From: Haloplanus rubicundus
GTDB lineage: Archaea > Halobacteriota > Halobacteria > Halobacteriales > Haloferacaceae
Reading direction: 5' to 3'
Assembly (NCBI RefSeq): GCF_003342675.1
Contig: NZ_CP031147.1
Coordinates: forward strand, 124,001 to 188,000
Length of the DNA: 64,000 bases
The first letter of the stretch is position 1, and every line of letters begins with the position of its first letter. The notes under the pieces were generated by a model. The model did not search any database. It saw only the letters and a program-made list of their open reading frames with translations, and was not told the DNA's origin. A program made the translations under genes and the position numbers. Shown here piece by piece: positions 34,381 through 43,661 of the stretch.

Positions 34381-36278
34381 ACCGCTTCACCCCACTCGCC
34401 CGGCAAGCACGCCAGCTGTCGGACTATCCAGTCGGGGATCTCGCCTGTTTCAACGTGGACTTCTCGCGAGAGTTCTGATACTGTCTAGAGACCGGCACCG
34501 ATCCGACACCGGCGAGCGAGCTGTCGACGCTCCGGCTCAGCGTCCCGGTGACCGAAACGAGCAACGATGTTTATGGAGAGCTGTCCGTCGCCGGCGACAC
34601 CGTCACTGGCTCGCCCTCAGAGCTCTTGACCGCCGTCCAAGCGGCACTCGACGCACACAATCCGGACGTCCTGATCTGCTCGACGAGCGAGATCGTCCCG
34701 ACCCTCCACGAGATGGCGGCGGACGCCGGCGTCGACGACTTCTCGTTGAGTCGGTGGCCGGATGTGGACTACCAGCAGATCGCGAGCCGGTCGACGTACT
34801 CGAGCTACGGTCGAATCGGCCACTCCCCGGCGCGGTACAACGTACCCGGGCGGGCGATCATCGACGAGTCGAACACGTTCTTCTACGGGGAGACGAACCT
34901 CGACGGCGTCCTCGACCTCGTGTCGCGCTCGAAAAAGCCCGTCCAGGAGCTCGCGTGGGCGTCGATCGGGAACGTCCTCACTGCCATACAGATCTGTGAG
35001 GCTCACGACCGGAGCGTCCTTGTCCCGTGGAACTCCTGGTGCCACGAATTCCACAAGCCTATGCGGACGCTCCACGACGCCGACCGCGGCGGGTTCATCT
35101 TCGCGCCCGAGGTCGGCTTCCACGAGAACGTCCACGAACTCGACTTCTTCTCGTTGTACCCGAACATCATCTGTACCCGGAACGTCTCACCGGACGTCAT
35201 CCGGTGTGACTGCCACCCCAACCGTGAGGATGTCCCCGGCCTCGGGTACTCGATCTGCGACGACCGGAGCTACCTCGTCGACGTGCTACAGCCGATCATC
35301 GACGCTCGCGACGAGATCAAGGCGGCCATCCGTCGCAAGAAGGATCGAGACAACCCCGACAAGGACTGCCTGGCGGAACTCGAGGGACGGTCCGGAGCGC
35401 TGAAGTGGATACTCGTTGCCTGCTTCGGCTATCAGGGGTTCAGCCACGCGAAGTTCGACCGCATCGAGTGCCACGAGGCAATCAACGCGTTCGCTCGGGA
35501 GATTCTGCTGACGGCGAAACAACGGCTGGAAGCGGGCGGCTGGCGCGTCGTCCACGGTATCGTCGACTTCAGATGGGTGACGCCGGACCCCGACGTCGAC
35601 GACGAGGACCGCGAGGACCTCGAGGCGCTCGCGACGAAGATCACGGAATGCGTCGAGATTCGGCTCGAACACGAGGCTCACTACGGCTGGGTGGCGTTCG
35701 TCCCGCAGCGCGAGAGCGACGCCGGCGCGCTGATGAAGTACTTCGGGAAGGTCGCCGGCGACGACGATTTCAAGATCAGAGGCATCGAAGCTCGACAGCG
35801 CTCGACGCCGCCGTTCATCGAGGACGTCCAGCGGGACTGTCTCGAACGGCTCGACGCGACCCGGTCGCCGGACGTAGTGCTTGATTGTCTCCAGGACGCC
35901 ATCAAGCGGCTCCACGCTGGAACGGTGCCTGTTGCGGAACTCGTCGAACGGAATCGCGTCTCCAAGCCACTCGAAGGGTACACGCAGAACACGCAAAACG
36001 TGGCGGCGCTGAAGCGGGCTCGCGAGCAAGACCTCGCCGTCCACCCCGGACAGGACATTGAGTATGTGGTCGTCGACGACGAGAAAACCTCGCGAGAACG
36101 GGTCGCGTTGGCTCACGAGGAGGTAGAGTCGTACGATCCGTCGTACTACGAGACGCACCTCGTCAGAGCTGTCGAAAGTCTGTTATCGCCGTTGGGCTGG
36201 GATCGGTCGAGGATTCGTCGAAAGTTCGCGAAGACACGAGTAACGAAGCTTTCGGCGTTTATTGATACCGATGTTTGA
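34381..36278 (+). pseudogene. polB: PolB-type DNA polymerase, N-terminally truncated with an internal stop
   Basis: From IDRFTPLARQARQLSDYP the frame runs to a TGA at 34476 (REF-stop-YCLETG) and continues without further break to 36278. It shows family B motif A (DFFSLYPNIICT, about 198-209 counted from GTG 34548), motif B (KWILVACFGYQGF, about 286) and a motif C of HGIVDFRWV (about 336) in place of the usual DTD. The N-terminal exonuclease part is missing. Translation could resume at GTG 34548, giving 576 aa. Archaeal PolB2-type enzymes often have altered motif C, so loss of polymerase activity is likely but not certain. The TGA could be a C-to-T change from CGA (Arg). Confidence 0.75.
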
Positions 36279-36293
36279 GAGACGTCGACTATA

Positions 36294-36333
36294 GTTACCC
36301 CACAGACCAAAATATTCTGTTTTGTGGGGTAAC
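36294..36333 (-). promoter_or_regulatory. Palindrome-flanked promoter, worn copy
   Basis: GTTACCCCACA (36294-36304) and its exact complement TGTGGGGTAAC (36323-36333) enclose an 18-bp AT-rich spacer (AATATT). The same arms occur at 39465-39505 in front of the gene at 39074. Read on the minus strand, TGTGGGGTAACTATAGTCGA follows, whereas the other copy reads TGTGGGGTAACTATGGTCGA: the start codon has become ATA. It is probably a relic of a second copy. Confidence 0.65.
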
Positions 36334-36351
36334 CACGGAATCAATCCAATC

Positions 36352-36371
36352 ACACCCCTCTATCGATGTGT
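36352..36371 (+). repeat. Origin iteron 1
   Basis: Exact consensus ACACCCCTCTATCGATGTGT, followed by TCGA. One of nine copies around the Orc1/Cdc6 gene. Confidence 0.85.
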
Positions 36372-36636
36372 TCGATCTGACCGCCACTCTGGGCTTAATC
36401 AATCAGAAAATCCGTGTCTCAACATCATTCGTGAAATCGCCTCGTGTTCAACTAATGCGGTAGCACGGGATCGCCCTCCTCAAACGCGAGTAAGGCGAGC
36501 GGCAACGCATAGTCGGTGACATTCAGCAATCTACGTAGTCAATTCGATAGAAATCGGAATACTGAGACGGATTTCGTCGGAGATAGGAGTATGAGTGGCA
36601 CGCGCGAGTACTTCGCGCCAGATGTCGAGAAGACAG

Positions 36637-36656
36637 ACACCCCTCTATCGATGTGT
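36637..36656 (+). repeat. Origin iteron 2
   Basis: Exact consensus copy, also followed by TCGA, 265 bp after iteron 1. Confidence 0.85.
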
Positions 36657-36836
36657 TCGACCTCCATGCTGACAAGGTGAGATAGAAGCTCTCGAGGATG
36701 GTCCCGTGATCATTGACAAGAAAACCGTCGTTACAAGGCTCGTAGGGTGCGATACCGGCAGAACACGGCACCACTCATACACCACGATTTCTGACGTGAG
36801 AGATGGACAGAATCACGAGGGAACTCAACACATCGA

Positions 36837-36856
36837 ACACATCGATAGAGGGGTGT
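36837..36856 (-). repeat. Origin iteron 3, inverted
   Basis: Exact consensus in reverse orientation, facing iteron 2 across 180 bp. The enclosed segment is the likeliest place for strand opening, though it is not strikingly AT-rich. Confidence 0.85.
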
Positions 36857-37017
36857 GTGAGTGGCTAGTCTAGAAAGCTAGAAGAAGAAGGCGAGGCCAC
36901 GCTCTCGTCAACGGCGTTTGTCGGTGTTTTCCACCGTGATTTGCGGGAAATCGTGTCGTAGCTGGCCTCGCGTTGGTCCCGACAGTGCCTTCTCCCCCCA
37001 CCCTCTCGAACTCGTGA

Positions 37018-37037
37018 ACACATCGATAGAGGGGTGT
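37018..37037 (-). repeat. Origin iteron 4, inverted
   Basis: Exact consensus in reverse orientation, about 160 bp ahead of the Orc1/Cdc6 start. A worn copy (ACACTTCGATAGGGGTGGGG, 37157-37176) lies still closer to that start and could mediate self-control. Confidence 0.85.
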
Positions 37038-37198
37038 GTCTGTCCCACGATTCCCATCAACGTCGTGGAACACTTCGTCAGCCGTTCCCGTTGTCATCGC
37101 CAATTTCCAGTCGAAGCCGCGATATTTTTGAGAACAATCGACTGATTCCCCGGATCACACTTCGATAGGGGTGGGGAAGATTTTTGTCGTCGGACTGT

Positions 37199-38665
37199 AT
37201 GGTTCCCGCCATGGGTGCCGAGGACTCCGAGAATTCTCCATCTGATCTCGAGGCGAGGGGGGACGACTCGTCAACAGATGACGAGACGACACAGGTCGAT
37301 CTCGCGTCGAGTTCCTCAGATTCTGAGCGGGATTCTGTCCCCTCTTCGACTACGGAATCCGACGAAAATACGTCGCAGTCGATCGAGGACATGCTACTCG
37401 AATTCGACGAGCAAGAAGGATTGATCCGTGACCGTTCACTCCTCGACCCGAATTACGTAGTTGAAGAGGACCGAATCGTCGGTCGCGACGAACAGCTCCA
37501 GGAAGTGACGAAGATGCTGCGCGTGGCGCTCGGCGATAACCGCCCTCCGAATCTCTTTCTCTACGGACCGTCCGGGACGGGAAAGTCGCTTATTACGAAG
37601 GCTGTTTGCCACAACATCAGTCGTATCTGCGAGTCACGGGATATTCAGTTCGGGACGATCGAGGTTAATTGCCAAGATCTCGACACACTAGGTGTTGCTG
37701 TCTACGAACTAGCGAGTCAAGCCGCGGACGAAGCAGGTGTCGACATCGACGTTCCGAAACATGGTGTCGCGACCAAGGAAAAATGGGACGAACTATATCG
37801 CATCGTCAACGAGAATTTCGACTCCGTCGTATTCGTCCTCGACGAACTCGATATGCTGGTGGGTCGCCGTGATAAACAGGATCCGGCATTTTCGCGACTG
37901 CTCTACCAACTGTCCCGGGCCGGGGCCAACGACGAACTAACCGCGTACATCTCTGTCGTTGCCATTTCGAACGACGCGAGGATGATGGAATCCGTCGGGA
38001 GCCGTGCGTTGAGTTCGTTCACCCCGGAAGACGTTCACTTCGATGACTACGACGCGAATCAACTCCAGGCCATTCTGCGTCGACGGCAGGATGCGTTCCA
38101 CGACGATGTCTTGGATGGCGACGTGATTCCACTTGCCGCCGCGTTCGCCGCACAAACACACGGTGATGCGAGAAAGGCGATCGACTTGATGCGCGTCGCC
38201 GGCGAACTTGCCGAACGAGAAGGTGACGACCGCGTTCGCGAGGAACACGTGCGGGAAGCCCAGGACAAAGTCGAGAAAAACCGTGTTCTGGAAGTCGTCC
38301 GCGGCATCAGCACGCAGAAAAAACTCTGTCTATACGCGACGGCAGCCGTCGCTGCACAGACCGACGACGGGTCGGCTCGCAGTACGACCGGCTACCGTGT
38401 CTATCAGTTCCTCACTGACTCGATCGACGCCGATCAGTACCACCAGGAGACCTACGTCAACAAAATGAAGGAGTTGACGACGTACTCCCTCGTCGACTTC
38501 GAGCGCCGGAGTCACGGTCCCAGCTCCGGAATGTTCCTCGAATTCCAGTTCGGCGAACGCCCCGAGACGATTCTCGAGACGCTTCGCGAAGACTCTCGGA
38601 TCGATATGGTCTCGCCCGAGGAAGTCGAATCGGTCGTGAAAGCGCAGATTCGAAACGAAACCTGA
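37199..38665 (+). CDS. cdc6: Orc1/Cdc6-type replication initiator
   Basis: 488 aa from ATG 37199 (MVPAMGAEDSE); ATG 37211 and TTG 37184 are alternatives. After an acidic Ser-rich N-terminal tail of about 80 residues come the Orc1/Cdc6 lead-in IVGRDEQLQEVTKMLR, Walker A (LYGPSGTGKSLIT, about 120), Walker B (FVLDELDMLVG, about 210), sensor 1 (VVAISNDARMM) and sensor 2 (HGDARKAIDLMRVAG, about 325), then a C-terminal winged helix (VVRGISTQKKLCLYA onward). It binds origin repeats and opens DNA with ATP. Iterons lie on both sides of the gene, so it almost certainly recognises them, making this a self-contained replicon module. Confidence 0.93.
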   Translation: MVPAMGAEDSENSPSDLEARGDDSSTDDETTQVDLASSSSDSERDSVPSSTTESDENTSQSIEDMLLEFDEQEGLIRDRSLLDPNYVVEEDRIVGRDEQLQEVTKMLRVALGDNRPPNLFLYGPSGTGKSLITKAVCHNISRICESRDIQFGTIEVNCQDLDTLGVAVYELASQAADEAGVDIDVPKHGVATKEKWDELYRIVNENFDSVVFVLDELDMLVGRRDKQDPAFSRLLYQLSRAGANDELTAYISVVAISNDARMMESVGSRALSSFTPEDVHFDDYDANQLQAILRRRQDAFHDDVLDGDVIPLAAAFAAQTHGDARKAIDLMRVAGELAEREGDDRVREEHVREAQDKVEKNRVLEVVRGISTQKKLCLYATAAVAAQTDDGSARSTTGYRVYQFLTDSIDADQYHQETYVNKMKELTTYSLVDFERRSHGPSSGMFLEFQFGERPETILETLREDSRIDMVSPEEVESVVKAQIRNET

Positions 38666-38698
38666 GCGTGGACTGTTCCTCAACCGACTACGAAGGGG

Positions 38699-38718
38699 AC
38701 ACCCCTCTATCGATGTGT
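38699..38718 (+). repeat. Origin iteron 5
   Basis: Exact consensus, 33 bp after the Orc1/Cdc6 stop, followed by AT instead of TCGA. Confidence 0.85.
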
Positions 38719-38801
38719 ATCAGGCGGGTGTTACCGCGTCTCACTCAGATACCTACCTCAAGTGCTGAGTTCGTAGAGCCAGCTTGCGTCAGACGCGCGT
38801 C

Positions 38802-38821
38802 ACACACCTCTATCGATGTGT
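38802..38821 (+). repeat. Origin iteron 6
   Basis: One mismatch to the consensus (A for C at position 5). Confidence 0.8.
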
Positions 38822-38965
38822 ATTCGAACTCAATATCGACTCTATCGGTAGAAATCGGCGATCTTGGATTGACCGCTTCTGCGAACTGGCCCGTTGACTG
38901 ACGGCATATCACCGTTCGTCTCGATACGTTTCGAACTCGATCAAACTCCGTCTGCTTTGCAGAAC

Positions 38966-38985
38966 ACGCACCGCTATCGATGTGT
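38966..38985 (+). repeat. Origin iteron 7
   Basis: Three mismatches in the C-rich half; CTATCGATGTGT is intact, and TCG follows. Confidence 0.65.
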
Positions 38986-39008
38986 TCGCCAGATTGCTTT
39001 GCTTCTAC

Positions 39009-39028
39009 ACACCCCTCTATCGATGTGT
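39009..39028 (+). repeat. Origin iteron 8
   Basis: Exact consensus, 23 bp after iteron 7 and just before the 3' end of the gene at 39074. Confidence 0.85.
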
Positions 39029-39073
39029 ATTCACGAAATTCGCGCCGTGACCGAACTCGAGGTTGTGAGAACA

Positions 39074-39463
39074 CTACTCTCGCGGATTGACTGGCGCAAT
39101 ATACTCGTTCTTCCAGGAATCGCCTTCGCGCCACTGCCAGTAGAAGTATCGGTACGATTTATCGCCGGTTTCCTTCGTCGTTTTCACCGTGATGTACGCG
39201 CTACCCGTCGGGACATCTTCGTAATCCTCTGGATCCGTCGAGATCTCGCGCTCGTCTAGCTCCTCGAGCTCTTCTTCATCGACTTCTTCCTCGGCTCGTC
39301 GACGCTCGAGTTCTTCCTCCCGTTGTCGACGTTTCCATTCCGCCAAATCAGCCGCGTACGCCGCGACTGCTTCCAACCGTTCCGGGGATTGGTTCTCGAG
39401 TGGCTCACGCAGATACTTCGGTAACTCAGGTGCGGGCGGTTTCTCCGGACCGTCCTCGACCAT
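39074..39463 (-). CDS. Conserved haloarchaeal acidic protein next to the origin
   Basis: 129 aa from ATG 39463 (MVEDGPEKPPAPEL). Pro-rich N-terminus, a long charged helix with KRRQREEELERRRAEEEVDE (about 44-63), likely coiled coil, and a C-terminal beta-rich part with Tyr/Trp (YRYFYWQWREGDSWKNEYI). The last part looks like a small nucleic-acid or protein-binding module. I do not recognise a named family. The promoter is bracketed by the palindromic operator at 39465-39505, so the gene is probably tightly controlled. The gene lies between iterons 8 and 9, within the replication region. Confidence 0.7.
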   Translation of the reverse strand: MVEDGPEKPPAPELPKYLREPLENQSPERLEAVAAYAADLAEWKRRQREEELERRRAEEEVDEEELEELDEREISTDPEDYEDVPTGSAYITVKTTKETGDKSYRYFYWQWREGDSWKNEYIAPVNPRE

Positions 39464-39464
39464 A

Positions 39465-39505
39465 GTTACCCCACAACGGCGTGTCATATCACTCTGTGGG
39501 GTAAC
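39465..39505 (-). promoter_or_regulatory. Palindromic operator with TATA box for the gene at 39074
   Basis: Arms GTTACCCCACA (39465-39475) and TGTGGGGTAAC (39495-39505), 11 bp each and perfectly complementary, are separated by 19 bp that contain GATATGAC on the minus strand, 25-28 bp ahead of the start codon: the expected TATA position for a leaderless transcript. The proximal arm begins 2 bp from the ATG, so a bound dimer would block both TATA and start. Confidence 0.7.
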
Positions 39506-39525
39506 TTCGAGATTCGACGACGTAC

Positions 39526-39545
39526 ACTCCCCGTTATCGATGTGT
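39526..39545 (+). repeat. Origin iteron 9
   Basis: Three mismatches to the consensus; TATCGATGTGT intact. The most distal copy. Confidence 0.6.
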
Positions 39546-41348: not shown

Positions 41349-41558
41349 GACGAATCAACTGCTCCGAATCGCCCTTCTCCACAGTTGTCCTTCTGAGAGA
41401 TTCGACGTTCTTGCTCGAGATTGCCCTCTCATTGCGAGTATTAACCAACAATCGAGGGGTACAGCGGCGTCTGTTGGTTAAGAATTTCCCCAATAGTTTC
41501 GTGCCCCGACGAACTGAGCGCTTGACCTCGAAGTCCGTTGCGCGATACTAAAAAAGGA

Positions 41559-42014: not shown

Positions 42015-43661
42015 TTATCTTGCCACCAACTCGAACGCTGTCTCGTAGTCAGCGAGAGTCAAATTGCGGTGGTTGAGTCGGGCGATGGTGTATGCAACGG
42101 TCATAATCGAAACTCCTTCCCGTACGTTTCCCACCGCCTCGATCCGTTCTTGTTTGAAACGTTTGATGTTGCGCAACTCCGGCTCGGGGATCGCTGGATC
42201 GAACTTCCGGATCCAAGCGATGTACTTCTTGAGCTCGCCCGTTTGTTCGGGGGCTTTCGGCTGCCTGAAGTGATCGTACTGCCAGTCGATAGCTGCGTCA
42301 CGCTCGCTATCGGTCAGTCGGTCGAATTGGAGGACAAACTCGAATCGATCGAACACGGCTTCGGAGTGAGCGGCGATGATCTCTTCCCGAGAGCGATAGT
42401 TCCCGAGGAGTATCCCACGAACCTGCGCCGGGAGTTGCATATCTCGAATTTCGATCCGACCGGCCTCGCCAAAGGCCGTCAGTGCCGCGCCGAGGGCGTT
42501 GTCGTCTAACTCGTCGGCCTCCTCGATCACGGCCAGGCCCTTGTGTGCTCGTACGAGCAATCCGTCTTCGTTACTGTTCTTGTTGTACGTGAGATCGGCT
42601 CTCGATACGCGAGCCCCGTCGATACTGAATGCGCCGAACTCCTCGACCAGGAAGTTCTTGAACGCGGATTTACCGGTTCCGGGCGGGCCGAACAGGATCG
42701 CGTTCGTTCGACCCTTGGTGTCGTGAGCATCTTCGGGCGAAGCCAACACACAGAGAATCGCTCGTTTCGCCCGGTCGCGAAACTTCACCGCCGGTGCGAC
42801 GTAGTCCGCCCAGTAGTCGAGAGCGTCGTGATCGTCGAGGATGGCCTCGAAGCGCTCGATGTCAGCCTCTGTGACGGACTCCTCCTCGAGGACTTCTTGG
42901 AACTTCGGTACTCGCCGATCGAGTTCGTCGGGTACTGTCTGGTCAGGCGTCGAGATTGGACCGTTCGCCCCCTCGTCGAGTTGCTCCAGCGTCGCCGTGA
43001 TCACGGGCACGAGTTCTGCAGCGACGGTGTACGTGCGGCCGCTACTGGACCCTTTCCGAGTCGAGATGCCGGTGACCTGTCCCGGTAGTTCCGCGCCGTT
43101 CGATACCCACAGTTTACCGCCGTAGTGTGTACTGCCTCTGGCGCTGGCATCAGAGAAATCGGTCAATATGCGACCGCGGAACGTCCGGTCGTTCTCGACG
43201 ATCCCGCGTAGAAACGCTCGCATCCTCTCGTTGTCCCCCACGAGTTGTTGCACTTCGGTAGCGATGGCTTCCCACTGCTCGGTCGACGGTCCAGATCGTA
43301 CGACGAGATCCTCGTCGTTCATCAACAGCGTGTAATGATATCCAAAGAACTTGCCGAAGCCACTGGTATCCGGTTCGGCTACCTCGAAGATTCGGTGCAG
43401 GTTGTCGCGAGTCGCGACGTATTCGGCGAGCGCCGTTCGAGCGGCTTCTTCGTCCGAACGTGCATCGTTCCCATCCGTATCGAACCACTCCACACCCAAG
43501 GTTACCCCGAGTTCGTCGTACGTCCCGCCTCTGTAGTACCGCGCGAGAATCAATTCGACTTCCTCGGCCTTTGAGAACGGCCAGTCCCCTCCAGAGAGAC
43601 GCGAAGCTACGTCACTCGCCAGTGGTGCTGAGTCGTCCGAACCGATAGGCGATCCGTTCAT
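42015..43661 (-). CDS. AAA+ ATPase (MCM/MoxR-like), plasmid type
   Basis: 548 aa. Residues 1-270 form an N-terminal region with a Gly/Arg-rich turn (GISTRKGSSSGRTYTV). The AAA+ core has Walker A (LFGPPGTGKSAFKNFL, about 318-333), a DLTYNKNSNEDG loop, Walker B with an Ala-Asp-Glu extension (LAVIEEADELDDNALG, about 373) and RSREEIIAAHSEAVFDRFEF (about 415-434), which holds arginine-finger candidates, then a C-terminal helical lid (EGVSIMTVAYTIARLNHR). The order resembles MCM and MoxR ATPases rather than clamp loaders. It may be the replicative helicase of the element or a remodeler. The start overlaps the next gene upstream by 4 bp. A fragment of it is copied at 34174-34380. Confidence 0.75.
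   Translation of the reverse strand: MNGSPIGSDDSAPLASDVASRLSGGDWPFSKAEEVELILARYYRGGTYDELGVTLGVEWFDTDGNDARSDEEAARTALAEYVATRDNLHRIFEVAEPDTSGFGKFFGYHYTLLMNDEDLVVRSGPSTEQWEAIATEVQQLVGDNERMRAFLRGIVENDRTFRGRILTDFSDASARGSTHYGGKLWVSNGAELPGQVTGISTRKGSSSGRTYTVAAELVPVITATLEQLDEGANGPISTPDQTVPDELDRRVPKFQEVLEEESVTEADIERFEAILDDHDALDYWADYVAPAVKFRDRAKRAILCVLASPEDAHDTKGRTNAILFGPPGTGKSAFKNFLVEEFGAFSIDGARVSRADLTYNKNSNEDGLLVRAHKGLAVIEEADELDDNALGAALTAFGEAGRIEIRDMQLPAQVRGILLGNYRSREEIIAAHSEAVFDRFEFVLQFDRLTDSERDAAIDWQYDHFRQPKAPEQTGELKKYIAWIRKFDPAIPEPELRNIKRFKQERIEAVGNVREGVSIMTVAYTIARLNHRNLTLADYETAFELVAR

Follow-up and report, generated by a model that had tools for sequence, protein, structure and literature searches.

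Replication origins that lie beside the gene of an Orc1/Cdc6 initiator have been predicted in 15 haloarchaea, and in the portion of PMC3528665 considered here the initiators are grouped at ≥80% identity, a linkage between box and initiator is reported, boxes flank some of the genes on both sides, and the single Cdc6 of Natronomonas pharaonis pL131 is counted as origin-associated (Table 1 therein); passages of the review PMC4010727 and of PMC4441112 agree with this picture of orc-adjacent origins. For Haloarcula hispanica, sections of PMC3936714 describe that every Cdc6 is specific for the origin beside it, and that a downstream cluster of origin recognition boxes (ORBs) lacks origin activity, lowers the activity of oriC2 and cannot be deleted while oriC2 is present. 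Here we analysed a locus of this kind from Haloplanus rubicundus: the window, 64,000 nucleotides in length, comprises bases 124001–188000 of a replicon of 225,191 b (C1; the 3.77 Mb genome further includes the 3.4 Mb main contig C2, 3,401,387 b, and C3, 147,062 b) and contains an orc1/cdc6 gene with copies of a 20-bp box, ACACCCCTCTATCGATGTGT, on both sides. A preliminary description of this DNA had proposed a replication origin with a dedicated initiator, and our results support this as the best reading because the box is confined to this locus, travels with orthologues of the initiator in other genera, differs where the initiator differs and does not occur near the remaining Orc genes of the genome. 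We are highly confident that boxes and gene form an origin of the ORB type with its cognate initiator, whose binding and role in replication we infer from the sequence; the explanation as a whole, in which the region is the replication origin of C1 served by this Orc1/Cdc6, is very probably correct.

Boxes were sought by allowing at most 3 mismatches to ACACCCCTCTATCGATGTGT, using as controls 100 dinucleotide shuffles of the window and, across the genome, the reversed pattern. Nine matches were found in the window (six exact, one with 1 mismatch and two with 3), at the places and in the orientations that had been described, compared to none in the 100 shuffles. Across the whole genome the search returned 10 matches, these nine and one on C3 (C3:67222, 2 mismatches), and none with the reversed pattern: the genome-wide search that the preliminary description had suggested as a check therefore places 9 of 10 matches at this locus, and the box is not spread. 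Sites were also scored in bits with models of the boxes of three initiator families (A, B and C, see below), where the training of model A had used 47 loci of family A, none from the Haloplanus group, and the window hence represents a held-out test. Over all 225,191 bases of C1, model A detected exactly 10 sites of at least 22 bits, every one in the origin region, whereas no site in 6 random sequences of the same length exceeded 16.1 bits. The arrangement of two plus and two minus boxes upstream and five plus boxes downstream of the gene thus stands with regard to orientation, but requires two amendments: a tenth, weaker minus-strand box directly before the orc gene had been missed, and the copy at 39526 fits the family-C model better than that of family A. 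The features of the locus, with positions in the window, are as follows:

36352–36371, plus strand: outer left origin box; exact, 40.8 bits including the next 2 nt
36637–36656, plus strand: origin box, left of the central inverted pair; exact, 40.8 bits
36657–36836, no strand: spacer within the central inverted pair; ~48% A+T, presumed unwinding site
36837–36856, minus strand: origin box, right of the central inverted pair; exact, 40.8 bits
37018–37037, minus strand: outer right origin box; exact, 40.8 bits
37157–37176, minus strand: tenth, weak box just upstream of the orc start; 22.5 bits, equivalent position filled in most relatives
37211–38665, plus strand: orc1/cdc6 initiator gene, 484 aa, between the two box groups; AAA+, Cdc6 lid and C-terminal winged helix
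38699–38718, plus strand: downstream box 1; exact, 38.6 bits
38802–38821, plus strand: downstream box 2; 1 mismatch, 38.0 bits
38966–38985, plus strand: downstream box 3; 3 mismatches, 29.1 bits
39009–39028, plus strand: downstream box 4; exact, 38.6 bits
39526–39545, plus strand: ninth copy, a family-C-type box; 3 mismatches, 34.9 bits with model C and 24.3 bits with model A

The two plus and two minus boxes on the upstream side are intergenic inverted ORB repeats beside the gene, and each box ends in a G-string, GAGGGGTGT, when read on the opposite strand; downstream, four boxes of the locus's own type lie within 370 bp of the end of the gene, an arrangement that is conserved in relatives. 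Helical phasing of the box spacings was considered and discarded, as the vector length did not favour 10–11 bp. The encoded protein matches PF22703, PF09079 and PF13191 as well as TIGR02928 (orc1/cdc6 family replication initiation protein; 431.8 bits against a cut-off of 181.3), and among its nearest relatives of known structure are Aeropyrum 2v1u and Sulfolobus 2qby. It is the sole Orc-type match on C1 at E ≤ 0.001, initiators of other types not having been searched for on this replicon, and 7 more Orc-type matches, some of them fragments, are found on C2 and C3 at the same threshold.

Relatives of this initiator are widespread, with an Orc match at E ≤ 1e-80 in 235 of 391 genomes of the class and at least one box (up to 3 mismatches) in 207 of the 391, where the reversed control gave 0 or 1 per strand. 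In the plasmid database PLSDB, 208 records match the Orc at E ≤ 1e-60, the best match being at least 80% identical in 42 of them, and some relatives reside on contigs of chromosome size (e.g. 3.45 Mb in genome G281). We grouped 92 loci, including the window, by identity to the window Orc into family A (≥79%, 53 loci), family B (65–71%, 20 loci) and family C (47–57%, 14 loci), which represent identity cuts and not a tree; the five loci between the cuts (L115–L118 and L134, 71–77% identity), three of which have two or more boxes, were kept out of the family counts of box scores and of B and C layout. Two or more boxes are present in 52/53 family-A, 20/20 family-B and 14/14 family-C loci, and mononucleotide-shuffled flanks of these loci gave no boxes. 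The consensus of family A is ACACCCCTCTATCGATGTGT-TC, with G at position 17 in 97% of boxes; family B initiators are accompanied by a box of the form ...CTATCGATTTGTTC (T at position 17 in 100%, end TTGTTC), and family C initiators by ...ATCGATGTGTAA (middle GTCATCGA, end GTGTAA). The families differ at a few box positions, and the ATCGA core is unchanged in all three. The model of the own family scores best for 690 of 702 boxes (A 436/440, B 170/172, C 84/90), a partly circular comparison given that most of these loci served for training. On the protein side, families A and B show fixed differences in a presumptive ISM-like loop and the presumptive wing of the winged helix. Residue 441 was examined as a candidate for specificity: it is M in families A and C and S in family B and so tracks box position 17 (G, G and T, respectively), but we make no claim for it because other sites follow this position too.

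Around the four other Orc regions of the genome, models A, B and C find no site of 9 bits or more. These regions possess repeats of their own: a classic ORB inverted pair near C2:403.5 kb, ACACCCCTCGGTGTGAATGG at the C3 region near 28 kb and CACCCCACCGTGTCGAGTGTTC at the C2 region near 1.282 Mb. The CACCCC half of the present box is shared with the repeats of at least two of these regions (C3 and C2), so that it is the other half which appears to carry the specificity. The earlier statement that the box is unlike the common haloarchaeal origin box consequently applies to the specific half, which does differ, but not to the half with the C/G-string, which other haloarchaeal boxes have in common.

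The layout of these origins is likewise conserved. Counts were made over 50 family-A loci, that is 49 of 71 named loci at ≥79% identity together with the window (the remaining 22 of the 71 fall below 79%; L226 was unused). In 48 of the 50, plus boxes are followed by minus boxes upstream of the gene, the central pair being spaced by 184–210 bp from start to start in 38 of these 48, whilst downstream of the gene 46 of the 50 have plus boxes exclusively, 2 have none and 2 have a mixture. In all 35 loci with at least three upstream minus boxes the one closest to the gene is the weakest (35/35), lying 128–165 nt past its neighbour; its counterpart in the window is the tenth box at 37157–37176. Median box strength in family A declines from 40.8 bits upstream to 36.5 bits downstream and 26 bits at the gene-proximal position. 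In family B the downstream array is again tandem, in reversed direction (all minus in 19/20 loci, none in 1/20), and in family C a plus-then-minus pair is found downstream of the gene in 11 of 14 loci, with the upstream boxes mostly minus. The sense of the inverted pair is hence preserved between families whereas that of the tandem array varies, as would suit an origin core combined with a sink for which orientation is of no consequence. We propose that the initiator would bind upstream of its gene, where two plus boxes face two minus boxes across the spacer of ~180 bp, and that once bound it would remodel or open the DNA and load the MCM helicase at this cluster: the core of the origin is probably formed by these inverted boxes. 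Spare initiator would be held by the four tandem boxes downstream, which would thereby damp initiation; with H. hispanica oriC2 (PMC3936714) as the precedent, this array is more likely to be a regulatory sink than an origin core, and we lean towards a titrating regulator. Finally, the weak box at 37157–37176 is a probable site of autoregulation, through which the initiator would restrain its own transcription.

Several observations weigh against this explanation of the locus. The central spacer has an A+T content of 48.3% (family mean 52.2%, versus 43.3% in the gene), which is a mild enrichment and not a clearly A+T-rich unwinding element, and the least stable 50-nt window falls within the spacer in 5 of 48 family loci. 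The GC skew of C1 reaches its minimum near 120 kb, while the locus lies at 160–163 kb and displays no clean minimum; lacking a clean V, the skew was dropped as proof of an origin. Furthermore, no box was detected, even at 4 mismatches, beside an orthologue of 80% identity (L133), and lone boxes do occur away from origins, both here (C3:67222) and in relatives. A skew that does not point sharply to the locus would suit an origin that is dormant or degenerate, in which the ori-cdc6 pair looks intact but goes unused whilst C1 replicates from elsewhere, and there is precedent for this in that 2 of 7 predicted H. hispanica origins with the characteristic structure lacked activity as autonomously replicating sequences (ARS) according to passages of PMC3528665. 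However, the gene is intact, the boxes are near-perfect, no second Orc1/Cdc6 gene is found on C1 at E ≤ 0.001 and, according to PMC3936714, the single origin of the H. hispanica megaplasmid could not be deleted; we consider dormancy improbable.

That the boxes are instead operators of an Orc-like transcription regulator is harder still to credit. Such a role could account for the box directly before the orc gene and for the lone box on C3, which stands ~0.15–0.2 kb upstream of an open reading frame (ORF) that is OB-fold/RPA-like by eye, and Sulfolobus Orc1-2 is described in part of PMC9738581 as a damage-response regulator, but dense clusters of the box occur only at the flanks of the initiator and at no other promoters in the genome, and their inverted geometry is that of an origin. 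As for the downstream boxes, they could instead of a regulatory sink be an additional origin or belong to the core of the replicator, and the plus-then-minus pair of family C indicates that origin function can sit downstream of the gene. This we regard as unlikely, in that the family-A downstream boxes are tandem and not inverted, those of family B run in the opposite direction, as expected if orientation is irrelevant, and the downstream cluster of H. hispanica alone is without ARS activity in the sections of PMC3936714 referred to above. An origin with an upstream core and its own initiator thus remains our preferred reading of the locus.

The lone box on C3 (L068:7223–7242) is itself A-type, with a score of 31.5 bits. 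It was considered as the mark of an Orc-controlled replication gene and rejected, as the RPA-like ORF was unmatched at all 14 lone-box loci from relatives. In six other genomes (L260–L266; G368, G337, G369, G282, G138 and G299), lone or paired A-type boxes are located on a different contig from the cognate origin or at a distance from it of at least tens of kb, and possibly represent extra initiator sinks or remnants.

The less ordinary part of the locus is a module of a small protein, p129, and a dispersed 41-bp palindrome, which has the following features:

39077–39463, minus strand: p129, 129 aa, from an unnamed protein family linked to origins; stop codon at 39074–39076
36294–36333, no strand: palindrome GTTACCCCAC-N20-GTGGGGTAAC at the left origin edge, 18 nt before the first plus box
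39465–39505, no strand: palindrome GTTACCCCAC-N21-GTGGGGTAAC immediately preceding the start of p129, 20 nt before the plus box at 39526
41441–41481, no strand: further palindrome in the window, from the scan of C1
C1 positions 34168, 39379, 39950, 42250, 85414 and 222703, no strand: palindromes elsewhere on C1, from the same scan

The box at 39526 and the adjacent palindrome stand upstream of the p129 ORF, and the same stretch of box, palindrome and gene precedes the p129 homologue of genome G135, where it lies beside an Orc of only 36% identity (L231). The preferred reading of the 39526 box is that it came with a p129 module that has been joined to this origin, and to judge from its sequence it probably belongs to another initiator family. 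In Haloplanus ruber a p129-like remnant overlaps the downstream box array (L155:4526–5011), which suggests that the module was once present there and has since been lost in part. For p129 we obtained no significant family match (best Pfam E-value 0.042) and no PDB or viral match at E ≤ 0.001; the predicted fold, a long helix followed by a three-stranded sheet, is of moderate confidence (mean predicted local distance difference test score 75.9, predicted template modelling score 0.42). Homologues are present in 98 of 145 genomes of the class, two thirds of the sample. Across 30 loci (L230–L259) the proteins of this family are 107–129 aa in length and carry the motif Y-[FY]-Y-W-Q-W-R, and at 19 of them an Orc gene (31–100% identity) is found within the 1.5 kb flanks.

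The palindrome has the form TTA(A/C)CC(A/C)AC-N20-22-inverted repeat, with arms of 10 nt and a loop of 21 ± 1 nt, and C1 contains 9 such sites versus one G-type site each on C2 and C3. There are two variants, GTTACCCCAC and TTAACCAACA, and which one is present goes with the subfamily of the small protein beside it, the GTTACCCCAC type occurring with the 129-aa form and the TTAACCAACA-like type with the 107-aa form. Reading by eye, a palindrome was identified in the 110 nt before the start at 28 of the 30 p129 loci; a stricter scan of 90 nt over 72 named Orc loci placed one before 12 of 24 p129-type genes with an assignable start. The TTAACCAACA palindrome is present in 84 of 98 genomes with p129 versus 12 of 47 without (Fisher p 1.4e-12, with genome relatedness ignored). 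Over the 145 genomes we counted 634 copies, ~1.25 per Mb if a genome is assumed to measure 3.5 Mb, compared to 50 palindromes of both types in 517 kb of Orc loci (~97 per Mb), figures that do not separate enrichment on plasmids from enrichment near Orc genes. Among 81 ORFs that start beside palindromes (some loci overlap), p129 itself is the largest group (14/81), and others, named by eye, are a TFB and a ParA. A simple mobile repeat was rejected as an explanation, since the loop is held tightly at 21 (80 of 134 distinct T-type and 21 of 41 G-type sites) and the type of palindrome follows the p129 subfamily. On C2, one palindrome (G000:C2:1205049–1205090) is situated ~50 nt before an Orc-like match (C2:1205141–1205554). 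In searches of open-access text with the palindrome strings, the matches listed concerned primers and unrelated matter in one case, and in another none of those listed contained the word haloarchaea. One could imagine that the iterons are half of a two-part module for replicon control, of which p129 and its cognate palindrome are the other half: p129 would bind the palindromes, which are dispersed among haloarchaeal plasmids, dense near Orc genes and present at both edges of this origin, and would couple replication to plasmid-wide gene control or segregation, an idea that we put forward as tentative and doubtful.

Two further ORFs neighbour the origin. At 34548–36278 (plus strand) lies a type-B DNA polymerase ORF (NF004418, 1136 bits), which spans model positions 146–715 of 717 and, as called from this start, is missing its N-terminal part, and at 42015–43661 (minus strand), a few kb from the origin, lies an ORF with an MCM P-loop domain and similarity to BrxL-like ATPases. 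As to significance, the locus belongs to a clean and widespread family of plasmid origins, in which the specificity of initiator for box can be read from natural variation (A, B and C), and the uniform ranking of sites at three levels (origin, downstream array, gene-proximal) makes titration and autoregulation testable in many genera. p129 and its matched palindrome keep company with haloarchaeal Orc genes and may deserve study; should p129 indeed bind the palindrome, a layer of plasmid control that is absent from the papers searched would come into view.

In comparison with known systems, the locus resembles oriC2-cdc6E/oriC2D of H. hispanica, as described in sections of PMC3936714, in its upstream origin, initiator gene and downstream cluster of the same, initiator-specific boxes. 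It differs in that oriC2D is chromosomal and contains 11 boxes in 722 bp, as opposed to four downstream family boxes on a replicon of 225 kb. The classic ORB origin of the host itself, oriC1 (~C2:403.5 kb), also exhibits an inverted pair with outward C/G-strings and 181 nt between them beside an Orc gene, but the specific half of its box differs and the three family models score nothing there. Bacterial iteron plasmids and the DnaA/datA system also combine initiator boxes of the origin with others close to the promoter of the initiator and with a titrating array, which is a shared logic and not descent, given the Orc1/Cdc6-family AAA+ initiator and the archaeal MCM on the present side. Also close is the origin of N. 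pharaonis pL131 (L091), with an initiator of 81.2% identity and boxes at 0–2 mismatches. Its four upstream sites (≤4 mismatches) differ in reading minus, plus, minus, minus, the weaker minus box again being nearest to the gene, and neither a p129 match nor a palindrome was found at that locus. The exact box string is absent from the open-access papers searched, a search that did not cover the supplements with the 2012 box lists. With such an initiator and the same boxes, pL131 shows that this origin family had already been predicted in 2012 and that the present locus is an added member: it is most probably an origin of an ordinary type, ORB-like in construction and with a private box.

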